Source: Planctomycetota bacterium (lineage in GTDB: Bacteria > Planctomycetota > Planctomycetia > Gemmatales > Gemmataceae). Taken from it: DNA of 64,000 nucleotides. Each line of letters opens with the position of its first letter. Within the stretch, counting starts at the first letter, position 1. The stretch spans positions 1 to 64,000 of the forward strand of contig JAIOPV010000245.1 in NCBI GenBank assembly GCA_021413735.1, read 5' to 3'. This document shows positions 10,441-27,038 of this stretch, piece by piece. The notes under the pieces were generated by a model that saw only the letters and a program-made list of their open reading frames with translations, was not told the origin of the DNA and did not search any database. Position numbers and translations under genes: made by a program.

Positions 10441-10469
10441 GGCGGGTCAAGCCCCAGGCTCGACCCGCC
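10441..10469. terminator. Bidirectional-looking terminator hairpin
   Basis: GGCGGGTC (10441-10448) pairs with GACCCGCC (10462-10469), and AGCC (10450-10453) pairs with GGCT (10457-10460) inside. It lies between two convergent genes (ending at 10353 on + and 10486 on -). The T-run is short. Confidence 0.6.
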
Positions 10470-10485
10470 TTCATGAGTAGCTCAT

Positions 10486-11882: not shown

Positions 11883-12437
11883 ATGTCCGAACTGACTCGC
11901 CTCCTCGATGCCGCCGCGACCGGTGATCGCCAGGCCGCCGCAGACCTCCTCCCCCTCGTCTACGACGAGTTGCGAAAGCTCGCGGCCGTGAGGATGGCAA
12001 CTGAAGCCCCCGGCCAGACACTTCAACCCACCGCCCTCGTCCATGAAGCGTACCTTCGGCTGATTGGCCCGGCCGACGAGAGCCGTTGGGAGAACCGCGG
12101 CCACTTCTTCGCCGCTGCCGCAGAAGCTATGCGCCGTATCCTGGTAGATGTCGCCCGCCGGAAACGCCGAGAAAAACACGGAGGCCAACTCAAACGAGTC
12201 AAACTCCCCGACGTCTCTACCCGCGATCCAGACGATCGGCTCCTTGCGCTCGACGATGCCCTCACCCAACTCGCCGCAGAAGATCAGATTGCTGCCCGGG
12301 TAGTGGAATTCCGCCAGTTCGCCGGCCTGGGCCACGACGCGATCGCCTCAGCTCTCGGAATCACCGTGTACGCCGCCCGTCAGAAGTGGACCTACGCCCG
12401 AGCCTGGCTGCGGAACGCGATTTCGGACGATTCCTGA
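11883..12437 (+). CDS. ECF-type RNA polymerase sigma factor (planctomycete class)
   Basis: The 184-aa product (MSELTRLLDAAATGDRQAAA) has a region 2 with LVYDELRKLAAVRM and the AYLRLIG / WENRGHFFAAAAEAMRRILV segment typical of planctomycete ECF sigma factors. The region 4 helix-turn-helix (FAGLGHDAIASALGITVYAA) recognises the -35 element. This ECF class is characteristically encoded beside a Ser/Thr kinase, as here: the kinase gene starts 66 bases downstream on the same strand. Kinase-controlled activation is therefore likely by analogy. The start at ATG 11883 fits the usual N-terminus of the family. Confidence 0.88.
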   Translation: MSELTRLLDAAATGDRQAAADLLPLVYDELRKLAAVRMATEAPGQTLQPTALVHEAYLRLIGPADESRWENRGHFFAAAAEAMRRILVDVARRKRREKHGGQLKRVKLPDVSTRDPDDRLLALDDALTQLAAEDQIAARVVEFRQFAGLGHDAIASALGITVYAARQKWTYARAWLRNAISDDS

Positions 12438-12503
12438 TTGTTTTCGACAGCCGCAGTCCGGAACGACGCATTGATGGGTGAAGCCACCTGTTGGAGGACT
12501 GAA

Positions 12504-15500
12504 ATGCCGACCGACCCCGCCCGCGCACAAGCCGTATTCCTCGCCGTCGCCGAGGTTACCGATCCGGCCGCCCGAGCATTGTTTCTCGCCGAAGCCTGCG
12601 GCCGCGACCTGGAGTTGAAGGCCCGCGTCGAGGCCCTGCTCCGGGCGCATGACCAGGCGGACAGTTTGCTCGACGCCCCGCTCGTCGTCCCACGAGATCC
12701 GTACAACGCCGCCACTCGTGACTTCTCGCCCCTAAACCCGGACGCCGCGGCCTCGCAGGTCCCGGACGGCCTAGACCCGGCGGCCGACCGCGAGTCGTTC
12801 GCGTTCCTGTCCCCGTCCACCCGCCCCGACTCGCTCGGCCGAATCGGCCACTACGAGGTACTGCAAGTCCTCGGCAAGGGCGGGTTCGGGATCGTCTTCC
12901 GCGCCTTCGACGAGCAACTGCACCGACTCGTGGCGATCAAGGTGATGAACCCGGAGATGGCCGCCACGTCGCCGCCGCGGAAGCGATTCTTGCGGGAGGC
13001 TCGGTCCGCCGCGGCGGTCAAGCACGAGAACGTCGTGCAGGTATACAGCGTCGAGGAACAGCCGCTGCCCTACATGGTGATGGAGTACGTTGAGGGCCAG
13101 ACGCTCCAGGATAAGCTCGACGCGGGCGGACCGCTGAACGTTCTCGACATCCTGCATCTGGGCCGGCAAATGGCCAGCGGCCTGACCGCCGCACACGCGC
13201 AATACCTCATCCACCGCGACATCAAGCCGAGCAACATCCTGATCGAGGCGGGAGCCGATCAGAAGGTGAAGATCACCGACTTTGGCCTGGCCAGGGCGGC
13301 CGACGACGCCACCCTGACGCGCACCGGAGTCATCTGCGGAACACCGATGTTCATGGCACCGGAACAGGCCCACGGGGCGGCACTGGACCACCGCACCGAC
13401 CTGTTCAGCCTGGGGAGTGTGCTCTACCAGATGACCAGCGGCCGACCGCCCTTCCGCGCCCCGACCGCGATTGCCGTTCTCAGGCGGGTGACCGACGAGT
13501 CGCCGCGTCCCATCCGGGAAATTATCCCCGAAGTCCCCGACTGGCTCTGTGCGATCATCGCGAAGCTGCAAGCCAAGGAACCCGGTGCCCGATTCCAGTC
13601 CGCGAAGGAGGTCGCGGACCTGTTGGCACGGTGCCAGACGAGTCTGCAGCAGCACGGTCGGGTCGAGCTGCCCTTCGACCCTCTGCCGTTCCTGTCGGTG
13701 CCACCCAAGACGACGACGCCCGATCCATCCGCGGTCGAGATCGCCCCGAAGAAATCAGCCCCTCTGCCGGAAGCCCACGCCCCGCGCCGACACCGCTGGT
13801 CAGCGGCAGCGGCCGTTCTCGTCGCCGTGTTCGCTGGATTGGGCATGACCGAGGCGACAGGCGTCACGAACGTCCGCGGCACGGTCGTTCGCCTGTTTTC
13901 GCCCGACGGCACGCTGGTCGTGGAAGTGGACGACCCAGGCGTGAGCGTGAGCATCGACGGCGAGGAGATGGTCATCACCGGGACGGGGGTCAAAGAAATT
14001 CGCCTCAAGCCCGGCCAGTACAAGGTGCTGGCCAGCAAGGGCGGCAAACCGGTGATGCAGGAACTCGTGACCGTAGCCAGGAATGGCCGGCAGGTGGTGC
14101 GAGTCCACCGAGAGGCAATGGCCGGAGAGATCGACACTTGGCTCCAGTCCACGACCGCTTTGCCCACGGCGAAGCAGGTCGAAGCCGTCACCAAGAAATT
14201 AAAGGAATTGAACCCAAAATTCGACGGCCAACTCAAGTACATCGTCGAAGGGGGCGCGGTATCACAACTCGAAATGTCGGCGATGGGTGTCACCGACATC
14301 TCCCCCCTGCGGGCCTTCAGCGGGCTGAAGCAGTTGAGTTGCCCCGGGCCCTGGAACCAACACGCCGAGCTCTCCGACCTGACGCCGTTAACGGGCATGA
14401 AACTCGTCAAGTTGAACTGCTCCAATACAAGTGTCTCGGATCTGACGCCACTAATGAACTCCGAACTCGTAATGTTAAATTGCAATTCTACGAACGTCAT
14501 CGACTTGACAGCGTGTCGAACGATGAAGCTGGAAGAACTCTACTGCTGTGAGACGCCCGTCGCCGATCTTTCCCCGCTCAAGGGAATGCGCTTGAAGAAG
14601 TTGTACTGTGCTTGCAGGGCGATTTCCGACCTATCGCCCCTTCAGGGCATGCCCTTGCGGTCGCTCGGCTGCGATGGCTCGCGAGTGACCGACCTGACAC
14701 CTCTGCAAGGAATGGGACTCACGGAACTTTCACTCTACCATTGCCGCGTGAAAGATCTGACACCAATCCAAGGGATGAAGCTAACGGCATTGGTCGGCGA
14801 AGGTCCCGTTTCGGACTTCAATCCGCTCAAGGGCATGCCGCTCCAGTCACTGATATGGTGGGGAGTCGATCTGGGGCGCGATGCTGCGTTTCTGCGGGAG
14901 ATCAAGACCCTTGAGTCGATCAACTCCAAGCCGGCGGCAGTTTTCTGGAAGGAGATTGACTCTGCCAAGGCGGCCACGTCGGTCGATGAGGCCTGGCTCC
15001 AGTCCGTGGCCGCTCTGTCTACGGCAAAGCAAGTGGAAGCAGTGGCCAAGAAACTGAAGGAACTGAACCCCGATTTCGACGGCAAGCTCACGCACGCGGC
15101 TGAAGGCGGCGTGGTGACACAACTCGAAATGTCGGCGGTCGGCGTGACCGACCTGTCGCCGTTGCGGGCCTTTCGCGGGCTGAAAGAACTCCGTTGCCGA
15201 GGCGAGTGGGGTAAGCCATCCGTGGTACTGGCCGATCTGTCACCGCTCAGTGGCATGAAACTCACCCTGTTGGACTGTGCTCATACAAGTGTCTCGGACT
15301 TGACGCCGCTCAAGAACTCTGAACTTGTGATATTGAATGTTGACACCACACGAATTGTTGACTTGACACCGCTTCGGAAGACCAGGTTGGAGGAACTGAA
15401 TCTGACCGCAACACCGTTCATTGATCTATCGCAGCTAAAGGGAATGCCATTGAAGAAGTTGTCGTTCGGTGCGACGGCGATTAACGACCTCTCGCCACTG

Positions 15501-15830
15501 GCGGGGATGAAACTGCAGAGATTGGATTGCGGTGGCACAGGCATATCGAACTTGACGCCCCTGAGAGGCATGGAACTGACGGAACTGTATCTGTTCCGCT
15601 CGCGTGTGTCGGACCTGTCCCCGCTCAAGGGCATGAAACTGAAAACGCTGGTATGTAGTGGCACGCGTGTGTCAGACCTGTCGCCGGTCAAAGATATGCC
15701 CCTCCGCGAGCTGAGTTGCGAATTCAAGCCAGAGCGGGATACTGAGATTCTGCGGAGCATCAAGACACTGGAGCAGATCAATTTCAAACCCGCGGCCGAG
15801 TTCTGGAAGGAAGTAGGCCAAAAAAAGTAG
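12504..15830 (+). CDS. Membrane Ser/Thr protein kinase with PEGA-like domain and duplicated leucine-rich repeats
   Basis: ATG 12504 follows TTGGAGGACT. A conserved N-terminal domain (about 1-60) precedes a kinase domain at about 113-375. The kinase shows the Gly loop LGKGGFGIVF, VAIKVM, the catalytic loop HRDIKPSN (near 237), DFGLAR and APEQ, so it should be active. One membrane helix lies near 431-452 (AAAVLVAVFAGLG), placing the kinase in the cytoplasm. Outside, a PEGA-like beta domain (VSVSIDGEE...) leads into repeats of the form DLSPLKGMPLKKL. The ~280-residue module starting D-x-W-L-Q-S occurs twice in tandem. The neighbouring ECF sigma factor is the probable partner. The ligand of the repeats is unknown. 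Confidence 0.88.
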   Translation: MPTDPARAQAVFLAVAEVTDPAARALFLAEACGRDLELKARVEALLRAHDQADSLLDAPLVVPRDPYNAATRDFSPLNPDAAASQVPDGLDPAADRESFAFLSPSTRPDSLGRIGHYEVLQVLGKGGFGIVFRAFDEQLHRLVAIKVMNPEMAATSPPRKRFLREARSAAAVKHENVVQVYSVEEQPLPYMVMEYVEGQTLQDKLDAGGPLNVLDILHLGRQMASGLTAAHAQYLIHRDIKPSNILIEAGADQKVKITDFGLARAADDATLTRTGVICGTPMFMAPEQAHGAALDHRTDLFSLGSVLYQMTSGRPPFRAPTAIAVLRRVTDESPRPIREIIPEVPDWLCAIIAKLQAKEPGARFQSAKEVADLLARCQTSLQQHGRVELPFDPLPFLSVPPKTTTPDPSAVEIAPKKSAPLPEAHAPRRHRWSAAAAVLVAVFAGLGMTEATGVTNVRGTVVRLFSPDGTLVVEVDDPGVSVSIDGEEMVITGTGVKEIRLKPGQYKVLASKGGKPVMQELVTVARNGRQVVRVHREAMAGEIDTWLQSTTALPTAKQVEAVTKKLKELNPKFDGQLKYIVEGGAVSQLEMSAMGVTDISPLRAFSGLKQLSCPGPWNQHAELSDLTPLTGMKLVKLNCSNTSVSDLTPLMNSELVMLNCNSTNVIDLTACRTMKLEELYCCETPVADLSPLKGMRLKKLYCACRAISDLSPLQGMPLRSLGCDGSRVTDLTPLQGMGLTELSLYHCRVKDLTPIQGMKLTALVGEGPVSDFNPLKGMPLQSLIWWGVDLGRDAAFLREIKTLESINSKPAAVFWKEIDSAKAATSVDEAWLQSVAALSTAKQVEAVAKKLKELNPDFDGKLTHAAEGGVVTQLEMSAVGVTDLSPLRAFRGLKELRCRGEWGKPSVVLADLSPLSGMKLTLLDCAHTSVSDLTPLKNSELVILNVDTTRIVDLTPLRKTRLEELNLTATPFIDLSQLKGMPLKKLSFGATAINDLSPLAGMKLQRLDCGGTGISNLTPLRGMELTELYLFRSRVSDLSPLKGMKLKTLVCSGTRVSDLSPVKDMPLRELSCEFKPERDTEILRSIKTLEQINFKPAAEFWKEVGQKK
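14133..15824 (+). repeat. Tandem duplication of an LRR module inside the kinase gene
   Basis: Two head-to-tail copies, about 14133-14980 and 14985-15824, encode the same order: a W-L-Q-S segment, KQVEAV-KKLKELNP, a QLEMSA-GVTD block, then runs of DL(S/T)PL-GM leucine-rich repeats, ending in a ...TLE-IN-KPAA-FWKE segment. Their clear similarity at protein level suggests a fairly recent duplication within the gene. Confidence 0.8.
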
Positions 15831-16589: not shown

Positions 16590-17252
16590 TCACTGCTCCC
16601 TCTCAATGCTCCTCAGTTCCTTCAAAAACCAAGACCGGCCTAACAGCTCCCGAAGGTGGTTCACTTTCCGGTTGTGACACCGACCGAGCCGACGGCCGCT
16701 TCCGCACGGACAGGCTCGCTTGTTCGCAAACCGACGGCGTAGGGATGCGACCCGAACAAACTCCAGGGCGGATACTCTGTCCGACGCTCCGAACAGTGAT
16801 GCGAAGTGTTGCAGCAGCCCCTCGTTGCCGTGTTCGAGTTCGCCAAACGGCATTCGCTTGTGCGCTGTGAAATAGGTGTGACCAAACAGATATGGGATCA
16901 GAATTCGCTCAACGAATGTGATTAGCGTTGGCGATTGCACGAGCAAAAGTCGGAGTTCTGTCCTGGCACCAAGGCAAAGCAGATCGCCTTCGAGTTTGTG
17001 GAATGTTGGGGCAATCCGCCCCCCTGTCTCACGTGCTGTCGGTGTTCTGCGGGGAAAGTCTGAAGGCACTCGCAGTTCGACTTCGTACTGATCCTCAAAC
17101 GTCAGGCCGTTAAGGTCCGCAGCTCGGAAATGAAGTTCTCCAGCGAGAACCAGATCATCGTTCGTCGATGGTGCGATGCGAAGGCCCGGGTATCGCAGGA
17201 GAGTATCCTGCAACCGCCACCGGGCGTAAAGCTCACGGGGTGTATCAGCCAT
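16590..17252 (-). CDS. E2-like ubiquitin-conjugating protein with C-terminal SEC-C zinc motif (CBASS-associated)
   Basis: The 220-aa protein has an E2/UBC-like domain: a strand pattern YEVELRVPSDFPRRTP, then FHKLEGDLLCLG, with C93 in the place of the E2 active-site cysteine and H85 a few residues before it, as in CBASS E2 domains. A SEC-C zinc motif, CPCGSGRRLGRCH (C181, C183, C192, H193), is attached at the C-terminus. It overlaps the CD-NTase gene by 8 bases, so the two are translationally coupled. In short type II CBASS a stand-alone E2 acts on the CD-NTase. Here the E1 and a triple Ubl are encoded in the same operon, so it may accept from that E1 (inference). SEC-C may tether it to nucleic acid or ribosome-associated partners. 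Confidence 0.75.
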   Translation of the reverse strand: MADTPRELYARWRLQDTLLRYPGLRIAPSTNDDLVLAGELHFRAADLNGLTFEDQYEVELRVPSDFPRRTPTARETGGRIAPTFHKLEGDLLCLGARTELRLLLVQSPTLITFVERILIPYLFGHTYFTAHKRMPFGELEHGNEGLLQHFASLFGASDRVSALEFVRVASLRRRFANKRACPCGSGRRLGRCHNRKVNHLRELLGRSWFLKELRSIEREQ

Positions 17253-18405
17253 CGTTGCCCCATGGCTTTGGTGCTGACGGGATGATCAAACTTGGTGCTG
17301 TGCGGGCAACGGCCGGAGCACTCGGCGAACGTGGCGTGAACTCTCGAAGCTCGTCCAGGGTAAGGTCCACTCGGAAAATCTTCCGCACCTCAAGACCGAC
17401 GGTGTTCCCTCGCAGAATTTCCGGGAGGCGAGCGATGTCCGCCGTAACGGCCTCATGCCAGGTCCAAAAGTTCTTTTCAAGCCGAGGGTCGCGAGACCAT
17501 TTGTCCGCGTAATCCTCGAACGGATCGGCAGGGTTGGGAACTCGCGGCTTCTGCTGCCGAACGAACGTACCCATGCGGGTAACAATGTTCGTGATCGCAG
17601 CGAGCAGGTCGGATTCACCGCTGTAGGCACGCGCCGCGAGATTCGTGATGACCATAGAAATCGGCGCGAGGTCACGATCGTTTCGGAACATTACGTCGCG
17701 GTGACGCTTCAGGATCTGGATGCTCCTCTGAAGCGTTGTCTTCCATTCGTACGACGGCACGTCCTCGATTGAGGCTTGTGCACGTCCTTCGAGCAGACTC
17801 GAAGACCGACCGAGTGCGACGCGTGACTCGAAGAAGTGGGCGAACCCGCGAGGATTACTACTCGTCCACAATCGAGAGGGCGTATGGTACTGTGGGTGCT
17901 TGCGATCTGTAATCGCGATTGCGCGGTTGGCCCAATCGGACTGCACCCCGGCACCGACCAACCGACGAACGACATCGGGGTCCTCGGGGACGCAGGGCAG
18001 TGTGTCCAGGTGAAAGCCGACCTCGTCCGCGTACTGAAGTCGCCAGCACCGGTTGTGCTCCTCCACCGGGGCCAGCATCCCGTTCGCCTTGGCGTAACCT
18101 TTGATCTCTTCCCCGTAGAGTCGCTTCAACTCGACTTGCGTGATGTCACCCTTGGTCAAAGCCCGGAGCAAGCACACGTTGTCGAGGTCGAAGTCGTCCT
18201 TCTCGTTCAGCGGACGAATCACCGTCCCGTAGCGGAACGACCCTTGGGGGCGGATGTCGGGGGCGAAACCCCGCACGAGCGATGCTGGGCGGTGTAGCCA
18301 CTCGCCAAGCGACTTGTGCCGGGCGGCGGCCTTCTCGTAGTAGGATTTTGGCACGTCGAGGTGCTCGACGACCATCGCTAGCAGCCGGTTCAATTCAGTG
18401 TTCAT
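17245..18405 (-). CDS. CBASS CD-NTase (cGAS/DncV-like nucleotidyltransferase)
   Basis: The 386-aa protein from ATG 18405 has the nucleotidyltransferase signature QGSFRYGTVIRP (G55, S56) followed by DDFDLD (D71/D73/D75) and a third acidic site in GFHLDTLP (D134). This is the DNA polymerase beta-type core of bacterial CD-NTases, which make cyclic oligonucleotide second messengers on phage infection. Its start overlaps the Cap5 stop as ATGA, and its stop overlaps the E2 gene. The C-terminus ends in small and basic residues (PSLIIPSAPKPWGNDG); in Cap2-containing CBASS the CD-NTase C-terminus is the conjugation site, so this tail is of interest. The nucleotide product cannot be predicted from what is visible. 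Confidence 0.85.
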   Translation of the reverse strand: MNTELNRLLAMVVEHLDVPKSYYEKAAARHKSLGEWLHRPASLVRGFAPDIRPQGSFRYGTVIRPLNEKDDFDLDNVCLLRALTKGDITQVELKRLYGEEIKGYAKANGMLAPVEEHNRCWRLQYADEVGFHLDTLPCVPEDPDVVRRLVGAGVQSDWANRAIAITDRKHPQYHTPSRLWTSSNPRGFAHFFESRVALGRSSSLLEGRAQASIEDVPSYEWKTTLQRSIQILKRHRDVMFRNDRDLAPISMVITNLAARAYSGESDLLAAITNIVTRMGTFVRQQKPRVPNPADPFEDYADKWSRDPRLEKNFWTWHEAVTADIARLPEILRGNTVGLEVRKIFRVDLTLDELREFTPRSPSAPAVARTAPSLIIPSAPKPWGNDG

Positions 18406-19628
18406 GATCGGACTCCGTTTGGAATGGACAATGCGCGAATGAAGCCACCGCGGTCGTTCACCTGGTCGTACACGTGCCACGGCGTGTCTGCCATGGGCAT
18501 GCGCACGCGGCCGAGTTCGACCGCCATTGCTGCAGAAACAACCGGAAATACATGAACCGGTGTCGTTTGCCCGTGCGACGCTTTAATGCGGTCCAGAACG
18601 GTGCGGAGGGTCGCTCGGAACCGGCGGAGCTGTTCGCGGCTCTTGGTTAGGTCGTTGTGCGGTGTTGGAACTGTGATCTCCCAAATACTTACCGAGACGC
18701 CGAGCATGGCCTCGATCCGGTCGCGGGTGACCGTGGCGCTGAGTGCCAGAACCAGTGCCGGTGGCCCATCTGTCTTCGGAGGGGCGTTGACGATCAAATC
18801 CGGCGTGCTCGCGGTCGTCGGCCAACTCCAAGTCTGTGGTTCGCGCTGACGCTGGTACACATCCGCTGGCGTGATGTCACCCAGCAGCGTCCCGAGCAGC
18901 ACGAGAAGGGGCTGGGGCGCGAGCGCGAACACCGAAAGGTGCTCGATCTCACGGAGAGCCAATCGGTCCCGCACGCGGCGCTCGAAGTGGTTCCGAAGGT
19001 GGGCTGCTTCGGTAAGCCAGAACTCGTCGCTCCGGTCTTTCGTCGGGTTGTCGAGCGTGCCGAGGCTGATCGGCGTTGCGGAAGCCGGATACCGCGATGG
19101 GAACATTGCGGTGGCCGCGTCCATCGTCAACCGCGGGGAATTGTGGTCCCCGATGTTTGCGCCGTACAGCACGACGGCACTGCGGAGATCGGGATCGATG
19201 CCGGTCACCACTTCGATGCGGAGTTCGTGCCGCGCTTTCATCGCGTGCAACACCGGAATGGTGTAACGACCGCCAGCCGGAGCTCGGTCAATCTTCAGGT
19301 GGCAAATGGGGCACACGAGCAACAGGTTGTCGATCCCGTTGAGCTCGTCCGCGACGATACCAGCGTTCCCACGCGGGCCGCCGCTACTGAATGAATAGAT
19401 GTGTGCCCGCTCGGCGATGTTCACTACTTCTTGGGTCACCGGTGAACGCCAGAGCGGCTGGTTGCATCCCGCAAACTCGCACCGGCCACCAGCTTTTCCC
19501 CACAGCATCGCTGTCACGATGGGCGAGATGTAGCGAGTCACCTCGCTCGGCTCACCGGGACTGCCAGCAAGGGTTGTTGATTTGGATGCCTTTTGCGGCG
19601 TGTTTTTGGTCTTTGCCGGGCGGGCCAT
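18402..19628 (-). CDS. cap5: CBASS effector: HNH endonuclease fused to a SAVED sensor (Cap5)
   Basis: The 408-aa product from ATG 19628 has a Lys-rich N-terminus and an HNH nuclease domain. Zinc cysteines are GGRCEFAGCN (C50, C55) and LVCPICH (C106, C109); catalytic candidates are H76 (AERAH) and the N/H pair of DNLLLVCPICHLKID. The region from about 170 onward (LSVFALAPQPLLVLLGTLLG, VLALSATVTRDRIEAMLG, VHVFPVVSAAMAVELGR) fits a SAVED domain, which binds cyclic nucleotides. Known Cap5 proteins degrade DNA when their SAVED domain binds the CD-NTase product, killing the infected cell. A GAAGGA ribosome-binding site precedes the start, and a shared promoter-like element lies 43 bases upstream. 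Confidence 0.88.
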   Translation of the reverse strand: MARPAKTKNTPQKASKSTTLAGSPGEPSEVTRYISPIVTAMLWGKAGGRCEFAGCNQPLWRSPVTQEVVNIAERAHIYSFSSGGPRGNAGIVADELNGIDNLLLVCPICHLKIDRAPAGGRYTIPVLHAMKARHELRIEVVTGIDPDLRSAVVLYGANIGDHNSPRLTMDAATAMFPSRYPASATPISLGTLDNPTKDRSDEFWLTEAAHLRNHFERRVRDRLALREIEHLSVFALAPQPLLVLLGTLLGDITPADVYQRQREPQTWSWPTTASTPDLIVNAPPKTDGPPALVLALSATVTRDRIEAMLGVSVSIWEITVPTPHNDLTKSREQLRRFRATLRTVLDRIKASHGQTTPVHVFPVVSAAMAVELGRVRMPMADTPWHVYDQVNDRGGFIRALSIPNGVRS

Positions 19629-19671
19629 GCAGAATCCTTCAATTGAAGCTGATGCGTTTCGGAATGGTTTC

Positions 19672-19711
19672 GAAAGAGTAATCGCCCGGCGAGGAAGCAA
19701 CCGGTAACGTC
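19672..19711 (-). promoter_or_regulatory. Promoter-like element B (before cap5), twin of the element at 22177
   Basis: Read on the - strand: GACGTTACCGGT, then 14 non-conserved bases, then GCGATTACTCTTTC. The element at 22177-22216 has the identical first block (12/12), the same 14-base gap and 13/14 of the second block. It ends 43 bases before the cap5 ATG. Conserved ends with a fixed non-conserved spacer are the signature of -35/-10 recognition. Confidence 0.7.
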
Positions 19712-19821
19712 GCCCAAGATTATTCCCAGCATGCTGCCGGGCTTCGGCCCTGACCTGATCGGTCGGTATGGGAGCCGACACTCGCGAGTCGATCGTTCGG
19801 CTTCAGGCACTCTGCGAAGGA

Positions 19822-20268
19822 TCACCTCCACGGGGTTAAGAGCCAGCGGCGGAGTCGACCCCACCAACCCAGCACTTTCTCATCTCTCACGGCCGGGATC
19901 GATGTCGGTTGAGGTAGAACCGTTGCCCGAATATCGCTACTCGCCACGGTGATGCGGTCTTGCTGCCTCGCCGCGATTTGCGAGCTATTCCAGACCTCTG
20001 CTTCAAGGACTCGCCCGCGGTCGATAACGTAATGTGACCGGCACGGTAATGTCCAACTGCCTACTGACGGCCACACAGAAACGGTTTCGCCGTCGTACGT
20101 CATCTTCCAACCAGTTGGCGAGAAAGGGGTGACGACCTCCTCCCCGCACCCGCAGCAGCAACAGTGGCTGGCGGTGCCAAACTCCATTGACACGTAGAGG
20201 ACCCCAGGCTCGAGGGTTTCCGGAAAGTTACACACAAAGCAGTGTTGAAGGCGGTGGCAGTGGATCAC
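19822..20268 (-). CDS. DUF6527-family Cys-rich zinc-binding protein
   Basis: GTG 20268 overlaps the E1 stop as GTGA. The 148-aa product has HCFVCN (C10, C13), a remarkable HCCCCGCG run (H35-C41), and WTLPCRSHYVIDRG (C76, H79), which together would bind one or more zinc ions. The pattern matches the DUF6527 family, which occurs in operons with multi-ubiquitin-domain proteins and ThiF-type E1 enzymes. The C-terminus ends in a Trp/Arg-rich WWGRLRRWLLTPWR, possibly amphipathic. Its biochemical role is not known; a deconjugase, adaptor or E3-like role is possible. Confidence 0.65.
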   Translation of the reverse strand: MIHCHRLQHCFVCNFPETLEPGVLYVSMEFGTASHCCCCGCGEEVVTPFSPTGWKMTYDGETVSVWPSVGSWTLPCRSHYVIDRGRVLEAEVWNSSQIAARQQDRITVASSDIRATVLPQPTSIPAVRDEKVLGWWGRLRRWLLTPWR

Positions 20269-21440
20269 GCCTGGTCTCCGTTTTCGAGCTGGTTGCCGTC
20301 GGTCGTGTAGGTACAGTGGTGCTCTCGTTCGAGATCACGGTAGAATCCGCGAATCTTCTTCCACTTGATGACGGCCAGCACGGCGTTGAGCGCGTTGAGG
20401 TCTGCGACCTGGATGTTGGAGGAGTAGATGTCGTTCGCTCCGCCGCCCGCAAAAGGGATGCGGCCTTGGTGAACGTGGTCACGCTTTTCGGGCGTACTCG
20501 CCGTCACCCGCAGCATTCCACCGAGTGAACCGTCGACGAGATCCAAGCCCATGCCGGAGTCGATAAACGGGATCCTGAGGGCCTCGAATCTCCCGACGAT
20601 CGCACTCTTTGCCTCACCCGCATCGAGGCAGAGAAACGCGAATGTGGTCCCGTCGAGCAGGGGCAGATTGTCCGTTGTGAGTCGGGTCTTGTGCGAGATG
20701 ATCCCGCGGTGCATTTTCGAATAAATCCCCTTGAGGTAATCGACCTTGAGGGGAGCGTCCCGCAGTTCCACGATCGATGGGGCGCCAGGCGCGCGAAATG
20801 CGTTGTGCTGGAGAAACTCGTCCGCGTCGAACAGACGGATTTCTCGCACCGGTGCCTTGGCTACAAAGTCGAGCACGTACGAGCCGGTCCCCCCGAGCCC
20901 GATGATGCTCACAATCTCGTGACTCAGAAGTTCGCTTAGCGCACCGATCCCTGCCCTACCGGACGCGGTCTCTGTGTAGTTAAATACACCGTCATTTTCG
21001 TCTTCAGGCTCGCGGAACACACGGGGCGTGGCGTCAGGCTTCAGCACCGCGGCCGGACCTGCGAGGATGCCGGCGTAGGCCGTCATCTTCTCGTGGTAGT
21101 CCAGGTAGTCCCGACCTGGCTTGGTCGAGAAGTGGTACTTCGCGGTTAAGCCGTGACCGAGGTTGTAATCCCCCGCACCCTCGCCGATGCCCGTGATTCG
21201 CTTGCCGTCGGCGTTGCACGGAAAATCCCCGTTGAACCACACCTGGTGCGAGTCCGGGGGCCGGGTCGTGTCCCCGGCCAGGGTCAAGCTCGAAACCAGA
21301 GTGCCCGTGAGCACTTCACGCTTCTCGTTGACGTAGGGCACCTCGCGCATCACGAGGTGCGTGCCCCGGATCTGCACAAAGTAGCCCTCGTCACGAAGAC
21401 GCTTGAGGTCGGCGTTACGATTGAGTAGTGCGTGTGACAT
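20265..21440 (-). CDS. ThiF-family E1-like adenylyltransferase with N-terminal DUF6791-type domain
   Basis: The 391-aa product from ATG 21440 has an E1 adenylation domain from about 170: IIGLGGTGSYVLDFVA (nucleotide loop 181-189), IRLFDADEFLQHN (D205, D207), and the AFLCLDAGEAKS strand. This fold activates a ubiquitin-like C-terminus with ATP. The N-terminal ~160 residues contain PPDSHQVWFNGDFPCNADGK, with H65 and C75 arranged like an E2 active site. This part may therefore be E2-like, giving an E2-E1 fusion comparable to CBASS Cap2 (inference). The gene starts 26 bases inside the triple-Ubl gene, in another frame. Its substrate is presumably that Ubl. Confidence 0.75.
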   Translation of the reverse strand: MSHALLNRNADLKRLRDEGYFVQIRGTHLVMREVPYVNEKREVLTGTLVSSLTLAGDTTRPPDSHQVWFNGDFPCNADGKRITGIGEGAGDYNLGHGLTAKYHFSTKPGRDYLDYHEKMTAYAGILAGPAAVLKPDATPRVFREPEDENDGVFNYTETASGRAGIGALSELLSHEIVSIIGLGGTGSYVLDFVAKAPVREIRLFDADEFLQHNAFRAPGAPSIVELRDAPLKVDYLKGIYSKMHRGIISHKTRLTTDNLPLLDGTTFAFLCLDAGEAKSAIVGRFEALRIPFIDSGMGLDLVDGSLGGMLRVTASTPEKRDHVHQGRIPFAGGGANDIYSSNIQVADLNALNAVLAVIKWKKIRGFYRDLEREHHCTYTTDGNQLENGDQA

Positions 21441-22131
21441 TGAACACGGTCCCCTTCTTGACTTTGACGACGCCACCGGCGCCCAGCTCCCCCGCTGGAG
21501 GCTTCGAAGCGGCGTGGCGGAAAGACATGGAAAAGACAACGTTCGGCTCGTGAGGCCCAGGGAACGCCAACTGCACGATCTGCGAGAACGTCACCTCTGG
21601 TCCGGCGACGGTCTTCTGCCGTGCGTTCACGATGATTTCAAAGGTCGGCCGAGGGGCTGTGAAGAACCGTTCGACGCCCGGCTTCGTCAGGTCGATTAGC
21701 TCGCCCGGTTCGACGAGGCGGTCCTCACCCCCGCGTACCTCCAAGTACACGACCTGGTCGTCCGCAGCCTTTGCCAACGTGCGCAGAGTGGCACCGCTGA
21801 TCGCGGGCTTCCCCCACCGCAACTCGTGGTCGTTCAGAGTGAGCCGGAAGTCTCGGTCGGACCGGAAGGCGACGAAATGCTCGGTCCCCTTGGCTCGCAG
21901 GTCGAACGTTTCATCCAGGCGGATGTCTTCAAAGTCTCCGCTCGGCAGCACGGCGAAGAGGCTAAAGTCGTCGACCGGCGTGAGGCCGGCGGCAATGAGA
22001 ATTTGGCGGCCCAGGGGAACTGGGTCGGCAACCGTAACCGGGCGAAAGTTGAGGCTTTCGTCGCTCACGGAGATCCGGTGCAAAGACGCGGCACCGAGGC
22101 CTCCGGTAGTTGTCGCGATGATGTTGTTCAC
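21415..22131 (-). CDS. Multi-ubiquitin-domain protein (three tandem Ubl folds)
   Basis: GTG 22131 follows AAGGA. The 238-aa product divides into three beta-grasp-like units at about 24-92, 93-161 and 162-238. They share a strand-strand-helix-strand order, seen in GRQILIAAGL, GATLRTLAKAA and FSQIVQLAFPGP for the helices and in FSLFAVLPSG, QVVYLEVRGG and VVFSMSFRHA for the following strands. This is the multi-ubiquitin family encoded beside ThiF E1 genes in bacteria. The C-terminus is ...NVTRTTQS, with no terminal di-Gly and no hydrolase tail, so the mature conjugating end is unclear. It is preceded by a promoter-like element 45 bases upstream and overlaps the E1 gene. Confidence 0.75.
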   Translation of the reverse strand: MNNIIATTTGGLGAASLHRISVSDESLNFRPVTVADPVPLGRQILIAAGLTPVDDFSLFAVLPSGDFEDIRLDETFDLRAKGTEHFVAFRSDRDFRLTLNDHELRWGKPAISGATLRTLAKAADDQVVYLEVRGGEDRLVEPGELIDLTKPGVERFFTAPRPTFEIIVNARQKTVAGPEVTFSQIVQLAFPGPHEPNVVFSMSFRHAASKPPAGELGAGGVVKVKKGTVFNVTRTTQS

Positions 22132-22176
22132 GAGGATCGTCCTTTCAGTAAGTCCCAGGCGTTTCGCCGTGGGTCT

Positions 22177-22216
22177 GAAAGACTAATCGCTCGATCGGGA
22201 TGTGACCGGTAACGTC
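22177..22216 (-). promoter_or_regulatory. Promoter-like element A (before the multi-Ubl gene)
   Basis: On the - strand: GACGTTACCGGT, 14 variable bases, GCGATTAGTCTTTC, ending 45 bases before the GTG start at 22131. It overlaps the TGA stop of the upstream helicase gene (22215-22217). The same two blocks with the same gap recur at 19672-19711 before cap5. The blocks do not match the sigma-70 consensus, which suggests an alternative sigma factor; one is encoded at the head of this operon. Confidence 0.7.
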
Positions 22217-25200
22217 AGCCGAGATTTTTCTTCATCGGTCCGTCGGGTAACGGCCCGCAGATAAAAAAAGCCGGGCAGCGGGGACAGGTTCTGCTCTGAT
22301 TGAGTGGAAATCGACCGGCCTGGACGTCGGTCCCCATCTTGTCAATCGACTTGCGACGGTTGGCAAGGACGCGGGTTGTCATCGCGACCGGCGTGATTTC
22401 ACCGTCGCTCAGGTGAACCAATTCGACCGCGGAGTCCGAGGAGTGGGCGTGCGCCGCGATGAAGAACGCCGCGGTCGCAAGACTCTCGGAATCCTTGGAG
22501 CCCTTGTGCCCGGTGTCGACCCGGCGCATCGTGATCTTCCCGCCCGCATTTAAGACCTGATCGGGACGGATCACAATCTCGCCTCCGGGGACCGCTAGGC
22601 GGAGTAATGGCACTGGTTGGATTTCTGAACCCAGAGCGGTTTCGGAGTAAAAGCTCAGCAACTGGACGGCGATTCGCTTGTACTCTTTCTCATAGCCATG
22701 ATCCGTCGGGCCATGGTTTGCCCACAAGACGTCTAACGAAGCCGTCAACTCTGCGAGTGAGGGTTCTTTGCCCCCGATCCCGTCGATGACTTTCTGGACG
22801 GCCGCGTGTAACTGCATGAACGCGGTTTCGTTCCGACGGCCCCCCACATCAAGGATGTGGGTGTAGAGGAAGCGGCGAGGGCACCGCTCGTACAAGGCTA
22901 GTTGGTGGTCGGTGAAAGCGAACGGCCCGTCGAAGGTCAGCGGTACCGGCGAATCTTCAGGGCTCGCAGTGAGAGCCTTCATCGGTCGAACGCGGCGAAT
23001 GTCGATTCTGCCGTCCAAGCGATCGATGAATGGCGACCGAGGGTGATCCGCCCCGTTCGACTTTTGGGTAGAGGAATAGAGCGTCAGCCGGTCGCGTGCT
23101 CTTGATAGAGCCACGAAGAACAAACACTGCTGTTCCTCACTCAAAGCCTCTTTGACGGCGTCTACCGCCTTGCCAGTGGCCCCATCGATCAAGCCATCGG
23201 GGGGGATAATCGTTCCCGCGACAAGGGCATTCGGCGAGCGGGGGAGACTTGAGTTGGTCAAACCTGGAATGTGGACTGCACGGAACTCAAGCCCCTTACT
23301 CCCGTGCATCGTCATCAGCCGAACGGCATCAATTCCTTGTGCGGCTGCGGGGAGATGACGCAGGTCGCGTTCATCAGAAAACAAAACCAGCCGTCGAATC
23401 CTTGTGAGTAGTCGAGAGAGCGGGAACCCTTGGCCGCCGGCTTGACTCCGAACGAAATTCATGAACTGCCATATCGCAATACCGCGTGACCGCGTCCGAA
23501 TGTCTTCGGCCTCGGCGACAACTGCGGCAACCCGCGTGCGATCAAGCAACACCGTGCAAAGTACGGTCCAAGGGTTTGCATCCGGCGCAAACCCGGCAAG
23601 GAGCGCGGCGACGCTTTGAAGACCCACGAGACCCTTCTGAGAGAGTGGAGGGAGGGTCTTGAGTCTTTCTACCCACTTCATCGGTTCGCAATCGTCCGCT
23701 TTGAGACTCGATAGCACGATGGCGACGTCGGCGAGCGGAATGGCATGAGCCTTCTGCCCCCCGACACGCAGCAACCCCATTGCCCGGCGATCAACAAGGA
23801 GTGAGAGGAGCGAAAGGAAGTCTTTGATCTCGTCGCGTTCGAACAAACTCCCGAGGTAGAGCACCGGCACGTCAAGGCTCTCCAGCCCTTCGGTCATGCG
23901 TCCGAGCCGTTCGTTGCCGGCGCTCAAGATCGCTTGATCGCGGTACGCGTATCCCTTCTTGTGCAACTCCTCGATCGCCTCCGCAACCGCCGCGATTTCT
24001 TGGTCGGCGGTCTCGACCGCCTGGTACTCGGGCCGCTCCCCGCCCTTACCGCGGTTCGCACGCAATCCAATCTCGGTCCCGCGGACACTCGGGATCTCCT
24101 CGGCGAATGTGAGGTACGCGTCGATGATCTCCTCGACACTTCGGTAATTCACCGTCAGCCGGCCGCGCTTTGCCCCAGGGAAATCCTCACGGTCGAAGCG
24201 AGCCATGTTGAACGCGGAGGCCCCTCGAAACCGGTAGATCGACTGCTTCACGTCACCAACTGCCCAGAGATTGCGGCCTTCCCCGGCGATGCATTTCAAG
24301 AGGCGCACGCTGCTCCTGTTCACGTCCTGATACTCGTCGACTAGGATGTGCTCGTAGCGTGTGGCCAGGTACTCACGGACGTCCGCGTTCGTTTCACATA
24401 GCCGAACCGTCATCGCCACGAGGTCGCCGAAATCGACACGCCCTTTGGCCACCTTCATTTTCTCATAGGCGGCGAATACGGTTGCTACCTCAAGACTGCG
24501 TTCGGCGGCCTCACGCTCTTCGGGAGCCGTGGCAGACTCAAGCATCGCCTCCGCCAGGACGCGGTATCCTCCGGCATCGATGACTTCGTCTTGGGCACGT
24601 GAGATCGCATCGAGAATGCTCTTGATCGAAGCCGAAGGGTCCAGCAGGTTTTTGAAATGTTTAAGACCGAGTTTTGGGTATTCATCCTCCAGAAACCCAA
24701 TCGCATCAGTTCGTTCGAGGAGCTTCGGGTTGTGGGGTAGTTTGAGGTGGTCGTGAAAGCGGCGGATGATGTCCAGCCCGAAGCCGTGGAAAGTGCCGAC
24801 CCAGATGCTCGCTGCCGCCGCCCGGTGTTTTGAACCGATTCGCTCCGAAAGTTCGCCGGCGGCCTTGTTGGAGAAGGTCAAAATAAGGATCTTGCTCGGC
24901 TCGATTCCTTTGGTGAGGAGGTACTCGACCCGGCCCACCAGTGTCTGCGTCTTCCCTGTTCCTGGCCCGGCCTCGAGCAGATACGGTGTTCCCTCGTGTG
25001 TCGCCGCCTCTTGCTGGTCCGGTTTCAGAGGCTTGTTCTCAACTTCTTTGGATGCGGGGATCTCGATCGCGGGAAGAAGGAGTGCGTCGAGGAGTTGTTG
25101 GGAGACAACGGCGTGCGGTGCGCCGAGTCTCGACGCAATAGTTGCCGCGGTAGCCCCTTCCTCAAGGTGCAATTTTCGCACCCATGGTCTGGGCACCAAG

Positions 25201-25616
25201 AACTCTCGTGCGAACAGGTCCATCTGGACCTCACGCCGTTGACGCTGGCTGTAGTCGATGACGCGATCAACACCAACGGGAACCGCCTCCGACGCCCTGA
25301 GTGGGTCAACCTCCGAGGTCTTATCCGCCTCGTCTTGGCCATCGAATTCAACGTGTCCAATCTCGTGGGCGACCAGAAACGCGCTTGCGAAATCATCCCC
25401 CGTGTCCTCATGGATGATCAGGAGCGCGTCGGGGTCGTACACTGCACGGCCGCCGAAGAGTCGAACATCCCCCGCCGGAACCTTGGCGACATCGATCAGA
25501 CGTCTCGCTGCTTCGGCGCACGCGAACGCGTAAGGTTTCCACGGATCTCGCCCCGTCGCGACCGCTGCGGCGTGGAATCGCCCCGCACTCTGGCGACTGA
25601 TCTCAATTGAGTCCAT
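22215..25616 (-). CDS. ImmA/IrrE metalloprotease - UvrD/RecB-type helicase - Fe-S nuclease-like fusion
   Basis: The 1133-aa protein has three parts. Residues ~30-145 form an ImmA/IrrE-type zinc protease with HEIGH (84-88) and a downstream glutamate in LFAREFLVP (E138). From ~195 comes a superfamily 1 helicase: Walker A AGPGTGKT (216-223), TFSNKAAGEL, WVGTFHGFG, VDEYQD, GDVKQSIYRFRGA and VALSRARDRL. The C-terminus carries a Cys (YERCPRRF) plus CPRCPAFFIC (C1111, C1114, C1120), the four-Cys layout of AddB-type Fe-S nucleases. The usual nuclease D-x-K seems replaced (RRVDTGH), so cleavage may be lost. It overlaps the upstream gene by 14 bases. ImmA/IrrE proteases are known to cleave repressors in response to stress or DNA. 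Confidence 0.85.
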   Translation of the reverse strand: MDSIEISRQSAGRFHAAAVATGRDPWKPYAFACAEAARRLIDVAKVPAGDVRLFGGRAVYDPDALLIIHEDTGDDFASAFLVAHEIGHVEFDGQDEADKTSEVDPLRASEAVPVGVDRVIDYSQRQRREVQMDLFAREFLVPRPWVRKLHLEEGATAATIASRLGAPHAVVSQQLLDALLLPAIEIPASKEVENKPLKPDQQEAATHEGTPYLLEAGPGTGKTQTLVGRVEYLLTKGIEPSKILILTFSNKAAGELSERIGSKHRAAAASIWVGTFHGFGLDIIRRFHDHLKLPHNPKLLERTDAIGFLEDEYPKLGLKHFKNLLDPSASIKSILDAISRAQDEVIDAGGYRVLAEAMLESATAPEEREAAERSLEVATVFAAYEKMKVAKGRVDFGDLVAMTVRLCETNADVREYLATRYEHILVDEYQDVNRSSVRLLKCIAGEGRNLWAVGDVKQSIYRFRGASAFNMARFDREDFPGAKRGRLTVNYRSVEEIIDAYLTFAEEIPSVRGTEIGLRANRGKGGERPEYQAVETADQEIAAVAEAIEELHKKGYAYRDQAILSAGNERLGRMTEGLESLDVPVLYLGSLFERDEIKDFLSLLSLLVDRRAMGLLRVGGQKAHAIPLADVAIVLSSLKADDCEPMKWVERLKTLPPLSQKGLVGLQSVAALLAGFAPDANPWTVLCTVLLDRTRVAAVVAEAEDIRTRSRGIAIWQFMNFVRSQAGGQGFPLSRLLTRIRRLVLFSDERDLRHLPAAAQGIDAVRLMTMHGSKGLEFRAVHIPGLTNSSLPRSPNALVAGTIIPPDGLIDGATGKAVDAVKEALSEEQQCLFFVALSRARDRLTLYSSTQKSNGADHPRSPFIDRLDGRIDIRRVRPMKALTASPEDSPVPLTFDGPFAFTDHQLALYERCPRRFLYTHILDVGGRRNETAFMQLHAAVQKVIDGIGGKEPSLAELTASLDVLWANHGPTDHGYEKEYKRIAVQLLSFYSETALGSEIQPVPLLRLAVPGGEIVIRPDQVLNAGGKITMRRVDTGHKGSKDSESLATAAFFIAAHAHSSDSAVELVHLSDGEITPVAMTTRVLANRRKSIDKMGTDVQAGRFPLNQSRTCPRCPAFFICGPLPDGPMKKNLG

Positions 25617-26205
25617 CGGCGTTGCATTCCCGGAGAAGGAGTTGCCGTTGCTGTTCAGTCATTTCCGTGGCCTGAACAAGTTCACGAAACGATTTCTGGC
25701 CTTGGTGCGACGGTTTTACGTCCGATTTGAAGGCGAGCGCCGCCAGTCCCGGTTGCGCCTGTGCGAAATAGTCTCGTGCCGACTCGACAGATACCCCGGA
25801 CGCGTCGGCGAACCGTTTTGTAAATGGCTCTGGAATCGACGACGCCGTCACCAGCCCATCTCGGAACGCCGTGAGGAACACACGAGGGACATCCAATGCC
25901 GACGCCAGCTTCGCGAACGCGAGGCCCTTGAATTTCGCGAACGGATTCACTGCCTCGGTGCGTGGCTCTACTTGCGGTTTGCAACCAAAGAATTCAGACC
26001 ACGCTGTTTCGAGTTCCGGGTCCGCCACGGGATCACCGTCAGGGGACATCGGAACATTGGCGAGGCGGAGCTCGGACGACAGGTCGATCAATTCTTGGGC
26101 GAGTTCCGGGTACTGGCGGAGATAACGTTCAAGGGTGCTCCGGTCGTGTGTGGCCTCGACCGCGAACGCGTCAAGAATCGCCTCCGGATCGCGGAAGGTG
26201 CTCAT
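25603..26205 (-). CDS. Hypothetical protein, 200 aa, possible anti-sigma or repressor
   Basis: ATG 26205 overlaps the sigma factor stop as ATGA, and the 3' end overlaps the ImmA-helicase gene by 14 bases. The N-terminus (DRSTLERYLRQYPELAQELI) resembles the short segments before planctomycete kinase domains. The middle (KLASALDVPRVFLTAFRDGL and ADASGVSVESARDYFAQ) looks like the helical part of an XRE-type regulator. Lying between a sigma factor and an ImmA-type protease, it is a good candidate for a repressor or anti-sigma factor destroyed by that protease. This is inference from position; no family was identified. Confidence 0.6.
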   Translation of the reverse strand: MSTFRDPEAILDAFAVEATHDRSTLERYLRQYPELAQELIDLSSELRLANVPMSPDGDPVADPELETAWSEFFGCKPQVEPRTEAVNPFAKFKGLAFAKLASALDVPRVFLTAFRDGLVTASSIPEPFTKRFADASGVSVESARDYFAQAQPGLAALAFKSDVKPSHQGQKSFRELVQATEMTEQQRQLLLRECNADGLN

Positions 26206-27038
26206 ACGTCCTCTTCCTCTTTCAAGGCGTCACGCAGGGTTTCAAACGCCCGATTTCGCCGATTGCGGACTGTTTTCTCACCGCAACCAACGAGATTGGC
26301 AATTGTGATAACCCCCTCCTTCTGGGAGTCAATCGGCACCTCTTGGAAGATCAACTCAATGACTCGCCGCTGGTCTGGCGGCAAGGAGTTAATCGCCGCA
26401 TGGAGCTTTGTCCGGTAAAGAAAATCCACACTTTCGCCATTGAGAGCGTTCCGCATCTTCGCAAGGGCCGATTCGATCTCCGTCGGTGGTCCGCCCACAT
26501 CGTCCGTGGAGTCCATCTGTTTGAAACGGAATTCGTCCCGCCAGACCTTTTTTCGAGCCGTCAACCGAAGTCGCGCGAGCGAGAAGTTGAAACGGCACTC
26601 AAAGCAATCGAGCCTGTCGTCGTATTTGCCCTTGCGGTCGCCACAGAGCATCTCTTGAAACTTCTGGAGGACGGCCTCTTGGATTTCTTGTTCACCCGAT
26701 TTTTCTGCGAGCATTGTGGTGCCGGCAAGCCGCCGAGGGGTTACGGGCACGGCCCGAAGGACTCGCTGGCGTAAAATCACGAATAAGTCGTGCAGGACGT
26801 CATCGATCAAACCGGGGCGGCGGACAAAGTACAGCACGCACTCGGACGGGACGTAGTTCGGATCATGACTATCCGTAATGCGAGAACGCTGAATAAGTTC
26901 GCTTGTCGACAACCCCAATAGAGTCGTAAGCGATACTTCCACCTCGCACGGGCGACTATACAGACTGCCGTCAGGCCACCGGTTGCGGAGCGGTGCGATC
27001 GACGGTTGTGGTTCTTCTCGGGCGACGTTCTGAGTCAT
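26202..27038 (-). CDS. Sigma-70-family-like transcription factor heading the defence operon
   Basis: The 278-aa protein has a C-terminal region-4-like helix-turn-helix: INSLPPDQRRVIELIFQEVP, then GVITIANLVGCGEKTVRNRR. A divergent helical region 2 is plausible at about 60-160 (VLYFVRRPGLIDDVLHDLF, FECRFNFSLARLRLTARKKV). It is longer than ordinary ECF factors, which have about 180-200 residues, and unlike the one at 11883. As the first gene of a tightly overlapping operon it probably controls that operon's expression. The repeated elements at 22177 and 19672 are candidates for its promoters. No convincing third copy is present upstream of this gene. Confidence 0.7.
   Translation of the reverse strand: MTQNVAREEPQPSIAPLRNRWPDGSLYSRPCEVEVSLTTLLGLSTSELIQRSRITDSHDPNYVPSECVLYFVRRPGLIDDVLHDLFVILRQRVLRAVPVTPRRLAGTTMLAEKSGEQEIQEAVLQKFQEMLCGDRKGKYDDRLDCFECRFNFSLARLRLTARKKVWRDEFRFKQMDSTDDVGGPPTEIESALAKMRNALNGESVDFLYRTKLHAAINSLPPDQRRVIELIFQEVPIDSQKEGVITIANLVGCGEKTVRNRRNRAFETLRDALKEEEDV

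Follow-up and report, generated by a model that had tools for sequence, protein, structure and literature searches.

How toxic immune operons stay silent and are then switched on is an open question, and it is raised by a defence operon on the minus strand of a 64,000-nucleotide (nt) stretch of a Planctomycetota genome (contig JAIOPV010000245.1), hereafter the window. The operon is headed by a sigma factor gene resembling the extracytoplasmic function (ECF) type, followed by the gene for X200, a protein of 200 amino acids (aa), and by a gene joining M78 peptidase, UvrD helicase and nuclease domains (M78-UvrD-PDDEXK, below uvrD). Behind these come a ubiquitin-like (Ubl) conjugation module (multi-Ubl, DUF6791-ThiF E1 and DUF6527) and three genes of a cyclic oligonucleotide-based antiphage signalling system (CBASS), namely HNH-SAVED Cap5, a CD-NTase and an E2-like protein. 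A two-box DNA element precedes each of the two modules (P2 before multi-Ubl and P3 before cap5, both oriented like the operon), and a third copy, P1, lies within the sigma gene. Judging from comparisons of related loci, these elements are very probably promoters used by the operon's ECF-like sigma; P1 would start X200-UvrD, P2 the Ubl module and P3 the CBASS genes. Sequence comparison establishes the element and its fixed positions, its association with this sigma clade, the constraint on P1 and the duplication that gave rise to P3; from these we infer transcription from P1-P3 by the operon sigma. The copies in the window are the following.

22177..22216, minus strand: P2, before the multi-Ubl gene, starting 2 nt after the uvrD stop codon
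22212-22205, 22204-22191 and 22190-22184, minus strand: the parts of P2, a -35-like box TTACCGGT, the spacer and a -10-like box GCGATTA
19672..19711, minus strand: P3, before the cap5 (HNH-SAVED) gene, duplicated from the uvrD/P2 region
19707-19700 and 19685-19679, minus strand: the -35-like and -10-like boxes of P3
26390..26418, minus strand: P1, the third copy, in the 3' part of the sigma open reading frame (ORF), reading TTACCGGA-N14-GCGATTA with one mismatch

Both joints carry TTACCGGT-N14-GCGATTA, where N14 denotes 14 variable bases. The initial annotation had described two longer blocks at this spacing in front of both modules and regarded these as the only operon joints without gene overlap; the element matches exactly at both places, the gene coordinates confirm the latter point, and the distances of 45 nt to the GTG at 22131 and 43 nt to the ATG at 19628 are correct. 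The longer pattern, GACGTTACCGGT-N{10,18}-GCGATTASTCTTTC, matches the window exactly twice, at 19672-19711 and 22177-22216 on the minus strand and each time with N14, and gave no match in 100 shuffles of the window. The genome scan that had been suggested, with both blocks and a 14-base gap, finds the full pattern at the two joints and nowhere else in 9.8 Mb, even when 3 mismatches are allowed. The conserved blocks are thus real, but their extents were drawn wrongly: the conserved core is TTACCGG(T)-N14-(G)CGATT(A/G), shorter than described, with the GAC and the TCTTTC tail far less constrained, and the similarity between the joints runs beyond the blocks. The count of two copies also needs correcting, as P1 is a third, located inside the sigma ORF and 184 nt upstream of the next gene's start. 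That the sequence does not follow the sigma-70 consensus was borne out, and a housekeeping promoter could be rejected: sigma-70-like sites (TTGACA and TATAAT-like hexamers) number zero in 19500-22400, a range that covers both joints and has the P1 region outside it.

The element recurs in related operons with little variation in place or spacing. We compared ten chromosomal sigma-X200-UvrD loci from three planctomycete families, chosen by similarity of the UvrD or X200 protein; searches with an X200 profile contributed L095 (family f2), L096 and L098 (f3) and later L105 and L106, and the ninth profile match, L097, which has half of X200 and neither sigma nor UvrD, was set aside. Both P1 and P2 are found in 10/10 loci, every one with N14, and P2 starts 0-5 nt behind the uvrD stop in all ten. 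With at most 2 mismatches, the ten loci contain 22 sites at N14 (10 P1, 10 P2 and 2 P3) and, at spacings of 8-13 and 15-20, 2 sites in total, while 60 controls with shuffled boxes gave a mean of 0.23 sites and a largest value of 2. Mean pairwise identity is 0.96 for the boxes and 0.32 for the spacer at P2, and 0.94 and 0.41, respectively, at P1. For L105 and L106 we predicted P1 and P2 in writing before the sequences were read, and both loci agreed with the prediction (2/2). In L030, L031 and L032, where sigma-X200-UvrD-Ubl-E1-DUF6527 is 46-66% identical and the fetched stretch contains no CBASS, the uvrD-Ubl joints keep TTACCGGT-N14-GCGATTA. P2 keeps its place behind uvrD also in loci where a differently annotated module comes next, and in L095 it precedes a different module with a JAB protein. 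A search of five whole genomes allowing 2 mismatches returned 48 sites, compared with 35 for the reversed pattern, and all 11 exact sites lie inside this operon; P1 is exact in four of these genomes and one mismatch away in the window.

Although it is coding sequence, P1 is under constraint at the DNA level. The codon alignment of the ten sigma genes has 19 degenerate columns with an invariant residue, of which 3 use a single codon (Tyr TAC, Ala GCG and Ile ATT), and all three fall within the P1 boxes. The remaining P1 column, an Arg (CGG), shows one change, to the synonymous CGA in G956, whose P2 has that base too. Counted over row pairs, which are not independent, synonymous identity is 171/180 in the P1 boxes and 1683/4438 elsewhere. 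The initial annotation had taken an occurrence inside coding sequence as a sign of a simple repeat; P1 is literally such an occurrence, yet it behaves as constrained DNA.

The two copies also tend to carry the same changes: G956 has TTACCGAT and G659 has GCGATTG at P1 and P2 alike, and TTTCCGG and TTACCGAC appear as box variants in some loci. Across 24 loci (with L124, L126 and E. coli excluded), P1 and P2 agree at positions 3, 7 and 8 of the -35 box in 24/24, 23/24 and 18/24 cases (permutation p of 0.003, 0.0001 and 0.014, kinship uncontrolled) and at positions 7 and 1 of the -10 box in 21/24 and 13/24 (p of 0.0004 and 0.24, likewise uncontrolled). Position 2 of the -10 box is altered at one P2 only. 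Placed on a UvrD tree of 26 rows, 25 of them with both sites, these data leave 2-3 independent pairs per position, mostly concordant and none opposed.

The cassette extends beyond the planctomycetes. X200 relatives occur on 69 plasmid records, and the 16 that we examined come from Rhizobium, Agrobacterium, Mesorhizobium, Sinorhizobium, Bradyrhizobium, Cereibacter, Acinetobacter, Klebsiella, Pseudomonas and the cyanobacterium Leptolyngbya. All 16 have a sigma profile match directly before X200 (E value of 4e-40 or better), and X200 is flanked by sigma and uvrD in all ten chromosomal loci, the 16 plasmids and one E. coli locus. In most plasmid copies UvrD, multi-Ubl, ThiF and DUF6527 come next. 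L114, L116, L123, L125 and L126 have different genes downstream of uvrD or have lost them; in L121 and L124 the uvrD gene is interrupted or incompletely annotated. The sigma of L125 is split into two overlapping frames, through a frameshift, an assembly error or another start. P2 is recognisable in 15/16 plasmids, with N14 in 14 and N13 in P. koreensis, and P1 is present in 15/16 with 1-4 mismatches to the planctomycete form. In A. johnsonii pXBB1-8 (L118), an IS5-like insertion sequence (IS) at 12937-13896 separates uvrD from P2, and P2 still lies directly before Ubl. The chromosome of E. coli CP61_Sichuan (NZ_CP053730.1) contains the complete system, including P2 and also a P1 that departs from the core by one base. 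As a separate observation, the UvrD of L098 (G659) groups with the proteobacterial and cyanobacterial plasmid copies and not with other planctomycetes, which suggests horizontal transfer.

Where the sigma gene is absent, so is the element, with one exception in E. coli ES2 that is taken up below. Six loci (L079-L082, L097 and L099) carry Ubl/E1, X200 or CBASS relatives and lack the sigma as judged by profile; none of them (0/6) has a site at N14 with at most 2 mismatches, although L079 is fragmentary, L081 spans just 3.8 kb and L097 has only half of X200. L079 (G442) in addition shows, at 8355-8954, a fragmentary E1 with an internal gap, 80-90% identical to the window E1, and part of DUF6527 (73%); by their similarity, these pieces are a relic of a relative of the window operon. 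The element is not a property of the Ubl module, since the E1 of G402 is 71% identical to that of the window (G400, G444 and G485 reach 66-67%) and yet stands without the element; in G402 the UvrD is distant and the sigma and X200 genes are strongly diverged. It is not a property of CBASS either, as the CBASS relative of G431 lacks it and the other eight chromosomal loci have no CBASS gene in the fetched stretches.

Exact copies off the operon are rare, amounting to two. The exact motif matches three times in 392 genomes of the phylum, twice in the window and once in G180, with 2 matches for the reversed control, and the G180 match is a lone site beside genes resembling rplJ/rplL by eye. A looser search matched 8 of 95 genomes of the family, two at this operon and six others, the second exact copy, in G413 and at N14, being among the six. 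Sites with one mismatch in G400 and G000 are both inside ORFs.

P3 has a traceable origin. It is present only in the two loci with CBASS, the window and L006, a Gemmataceae metagenome-assembled genome (PLDW01000518.1) that has the whole operon at 64-87% protein identity to the window. The two joints of the window are alike over 73 alignment columns (score 52; best of 500 mononucleotide shuffles, 31) and those of L006 over 109 columns (score 151; none of 500 mononucleotide shuffles above 29), where the match runs from the last uvrD codons to the Ubl ribosome-binding region. The segments concerned are these.

22159..22230, minus strand: source of the duplication, comprising the uvrD 3' end, P2 and leader (from the joint alignment)
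19654..19725, minus strand: decayed duplicate around P3; its partner in L006, L1, still shows uvrD C-terminal codons

Since the similarity of the joints in L006 takes in uvrD codons, P3 is by this comparison a copied piece of the uvrD-end/P2 region that was set before cap5. P2 is the ancestral element. The flanks of P3 in the window have decayed and both boxes are intact. This changes how the twin spacing is to be read: the initial annotation saw the equal spacing as a sign of two promoters, and the spacing is indeed equal, but the cap5 copy arose from the Ubl copy by duplication and inherited it.

The genes placed under the three elements, and the proteins that might control them, are listed below, all on the minus strand.

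26202..27038, minus strand: ECF-like sigma factor that is proposed to read P1-P3 (Pfam Sigma70_r4_2 above cut-off)
25603..26205, minus strand: X200, a 200-aa protein and proposed anti-sigma or repressor partner (from gene order)
22215..25616, minus strand: M78/IrrE peptidase domain, UvrD helicase and PD-(D/E)XK nuclease in one protein (Pfam)
21415..22131, minus strand: multi-ubiquitin-like protein, first gene behind P2 (Pfam Multi_ubiq, 1e-63)
20265..21440, minus strand: DUF6791-ThiF E1-like protein (Pfam)
19822..20268, minus strand: DUF6527 protein (Pfam)
18402..19628, minus strand: Cap5-like HNH-SAVED effector, first gene behind P3 (domain match)
17245..18480, minus strand: CD-NTase, start uncertain (domain match)
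16590..17252, minus strand: E2-like CBASS protein with SEC-C motif (domain match)

The window sigma matches Sigma70_r4_2 with 27.9 bits against a cut-off of 25.7, and region 4 is matched by 8/8 aligned members (Pfam; E values up to 1, the best 7.6e-11). Sigma70_ECF (PF07638) is above cut-off over residues 72-254 of the L106 sigma, and a low-confidence fold model (predicted local distance difference test score, pLDDT, of 60) has sigmaE and SigW as its top fold matches. As a lone query across the phylum, the window sigma matched nothing but itself. The sigma frame of L032 (G400), at 7008-7718, is short at its N-terminus, which could reflect a frameshift, an assembly error or another start. The X200 of the window belongs to no Pfam family and has no Pfam helix-turn-helix (HTH) match; other members give single weak HTH matches in Pfam, a low-confidence model yields weak lambda-type HTH look-alikes and no clear fold, and a sequence search against PDB returned nothing convincing. 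In L097 (G483), at 10424-10627, and in six viral contigs (L108-L113), only N-terminal parts of X200 match, over about 45-90 residues; this part is possibly a separate interaction module. The M78 domain is N-terminal in the UvrD protein (Peptidase_M78, Pfam 2.2e-10), and its HExxH motif is present as HE[IL]GH in 10/10 chromosomal loci. The gene at the DUF6527 place in E. coli ES2 is annotated as 'ubiquitination-like system serine protease family protein'. CD-NTase, SAVED effector and E2-like protein are all present in the window, making up a CBASS with an HNH-SAVED effector. Elsewhere in the window, at 11802-15830 on the plus strand, the ORF list shows by eye an ECF-like sigma gene with a repeat-containing serine/threonine kinase gene behind it.

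From these parts we propose the following order of events. The sigma at the operon head would read the -35-like TTACCGG(T), N14 and the -10-like (G)CGATT(A/G), so that P1, within the sigma gene, would give transcription of X200 and M78-UvrD-PDDEXK, P2 that of the ubiquitin-like conjugation module, and P3, in the window genome and one other, that of the cap5-CD-NTase-E2 CBASS genes. The sigma itself would depend on a different promoter, and its targets would be X200-UvrD, Ubl and CBASS but not its own gene, because no site with at most 3 mismatches precedes it in the ten chromosomal loci, which also led us to reject an autoregulatory copy before the sigma gene. More tentatively, X200 may keep the sigma in check, and the M78 domain, coupled to a DNA-engaging helicase, may cleave or release X200 upon DNA damage or phage replication and so turn all modules on. 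Removal of X200 by the peptidase once the helicase encounters damaged or phage DNA is suggested by analogy with Csx30/CASP-sigma and CapH/CapP, and we hold this step to be possible but somewhat doubtful.

The initial annotation's assignment of the elements to the sigma heading the operon came through most of the comparative tests (the ten loci, the sigma-less relatives, the written prediction and the shared changes), and the promoter reading fits them well, but a number of observations weigh against it. Pfam gives no region-2 match in the window sigma, whose region 2 is too diverged for Pfam. Missing a site upstream of sigma in the ten chromosomal loci, the operons show no sign of the usual positive autoregulation, and a transcript from P1 would have a leader of 163-187 nt inside coding DNA. 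The proposed roles of X200 and M78 are weakly suggested by the order of the genes and their domains. The shared changes have exceptions: three loci have C at position 6 of the -10 box of P1, where every P2 has T, and in E. coli CP61 position 7 of the -35 box differs between P1 and P2 (TTACCGTT and TTACCGGT); once the tree is controlled for, the direction of the co-variation is right and the pairs are too few for significance. On plasmids, R. leguminosarum BIHB 1148 (L124) shows a degraded P2, its uvrD frame being broken by stops, and B. quebecense (L126) lacks P1 and has instead, at 8054-8082, a core match TTTCCGGA-N14-CCGATTA upstream of sigma, perhaps a relocated P1. E. coli ES2 (L131, 4289-6057) has an IS1 at the place of sigma, X200 and most of uvrD and retains P2, Ubl and E1 beside fimH, as in CP61, so that a P2 stands without sigma; it is probably the relic of a recent IS1 deletion. 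In L023 (G413:C1), an exact TTACCGGT-N14-GCGATTA at 1502-1530 lies off the operon, followed by AACTCTTCA, much like the sequence behind P2, and flanked by ORFs that look phage-like by eye; the genome has no UvrD-type or X200 match, and this copy may be chance, a relic or a phage-borne target.

A further point concerns three distant cassettes, L033 (G406), L034 (G402) and L035 (G480), which have an M78-UvrD-type gene (UvrD 31-39% by BLAST), X200-like genes by profile (1.7e-10, 1.3e-9 and 1.5e-9, respectively) and a diverged sigma, found by profile in L033 (4e-16) and L034 (5e-7) and probable in L035, where an unassigned ORF takes its position, and which show no twin element; L035 has a 1-mismatch match at spacing 17 in a different place. 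A method that looks for shared words, and that recovers the known pair in G000 and L114, found no other twin word above shuffle level in the three (4, 3 and 2 shared words, shuffle means 5.3, 3.9 and 2.2). The code is therefore specific to one cassette clade and the layout is not family-wide; the three loci are perhaps a second clade with another code.

Could the element be something other than a promoter of this sigma? It might be an operator, a repressor or anchoring site for X200 or the helicase with the promoter proper elsewhere; X200 is linked to the element as tightly as the sigma is, and the weak lambda-type HTH look-alikes of its model would suit a DNA-binding role. An operator is nevertheless unlikely, given two unlike boxes in fixed order at N14 that form neither an inverted nor a direct repeat, an orientation towards the downstream gene at every place, the lack of a sigma-70-like promoter at the joints and a window X200 without a Pfam HTH family. 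Somewhat less probable again is that P1-P3 are promoters of a host-encoded sigma. Planctomycete genomes have many ECF sigma factors, and the three distant cassettes combine a diverged sigma with absence of the element; against this, the same boxes accompany this sigma clade in Planctomycetota, Alpha- and Gammaproteobacteria and a cyanobacterium, and the searched genomes hold almost no further copies. A simple repeat or recombination footprint of module insertion, with no promoter function, would account for the uvrD 3' codons in the P3 duplicate and for two copies flanking the Ubl module as direct repeats. We consider it highly improbable: eight loci have P1 and P2 with no CBASS gene or P3 in the fetched stretches, P3 in the window has kept both boxes while its flanks decayed and its hairpin disappeared, and the boxes of P1 and P2 do not drift like spacers. 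Chance or a simple repeat is likewise rejected by the shuffles, by the scans of the genome and of the 392 genomes and by the conservation of boxes relative to spacers.

An element acting at the RNA level, such as an attenuator, a riboswitch or a processing site in the leader, deserves consideration on account of one feature.

22145..22178, minus strand: stem-loop just behind P2, by folding compared with shuffles; not kept at P3 of the window

The 34 nt behind P2 fold with z below -1 in 9/10 loci (mean -2.1 versus mononucleotide shuffles; the exception is G444), and the stem-loops share a common place but no conserved sequence. At P3 of the window the same region has z of +0.86, and at P1 a strong stem-loop is found in 2/10 loci, so it is neither kept at P3 nor general at P1, whereas the boxes are. 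RNAalifold predicts 0 pairs and no consensus fold joining the boxes, on a sequence alignment that leaves the hairpins unaligned, and a conserved RNA fold joining the boxes was rejected on this result. The hairpin in the leader does not belong to the switch, and an RNA element is a very remote explanation for P1-P3.

Promoters of the operon's own sigma thus remain the preferred explanation, and they have wider consequences. One DNA code that can be read by eye would predict which genes are under a defence-encoded sigma, a promoter-like site would be kept by selection inside the coding sequence of its probable reader, and promoter copying would be a route by which an unrelated system, here CBASS, enters the same regulon. 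Taking the parts together, we lean slightly towards a mobile, self-contained immune switch, in which the sigma, X200 and the M78-UvrD-nuclease sensor cross phyla with a private code, TTACCGG-N14-CGATT, carry a copy of that code inside sigma, can be plugged in before different Ubl modules and, in one lineage, captured CBASS through duplication of the promoter and the uvrD tail. Since a complete copy of the system sits in an E. coli chromosome, it is open to direct testing.

Comparison with known systems shows which parts of this arrangement have precedents. Within the literature covered, which leaves out most subscription papers and preprints, we did not find the sigma/X200/M78-UvrD cassette, the box sequence, the copy within sigma or the duplication of a promoter to CBASS. 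The usual ECF promoter is of the type AAC/CGTC, unlike TTACCGG/CGATTA. As in sigmaE/RseA and SigW/RsiW, a sigma gene is followed by the gene of a proposed anti-sigma, and two short boxes are held at fixed spacing; unlike in those systems, the gene order gives no sign of a membrane anti-sigma, and the site lies inside the sigma gene and not before it. Among immune operons, CapH and CapP regulate CBASS and Bub operons, and CapW and the pair CapK and CapS are dedicated regulators upstream of Bub and other immune operons (PMC13373217). In the part of that paper available to us, CapH is a DNA-binding repressor and CapP a separate peptidase, while the window has a sigma with matched candidate promoters and a peptidase fused to a helicase-nuclease; CapW and CapK with CapS are a repressor and a repressor-kinase pair, not sigma factors, and no M78-UvrD protein appears with them. 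The multi-Ubl, E1-like and DUF6527 genes behind P2 look, in our reading, like the Bub operons described there, in which the same portion of the text shows no sigma of this kind (PMC13373217).

Closest is the type III-E CRISPR (clustered regularly interspaced short palindromic repeats) locus of Desulfonema ishimotonii, which encodes an ECF-type sigma, CASP-sigma, and contains the binding motif of this sigma three times; CASP-sigma is held by an inhibitor, Csx30, that a defence-linked protease cleaves (PMC10028731). The operon described here resembles it in being a defence locus with its own sigma and three candidate motifs, the predicted sites P1, P2 and P3. As far as the accessible text of that report goes, the systems differ in their protease and inhibitor, which are unrelated (Csx29, of TPR-CHAT type, with a CRISPR trigger there; M78/IrrE on a UvrD helicase-nuclease here), in the modules, which here would be ubiquitin-like conjugation and CBASS, and in the promoter-like site inside the sigma gene, of which that text makes no mention for CASP-sigma (PMC10028731). 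As the nearest precedent, this locus with its three motifs shows that the kind of switch proposed here is already known.

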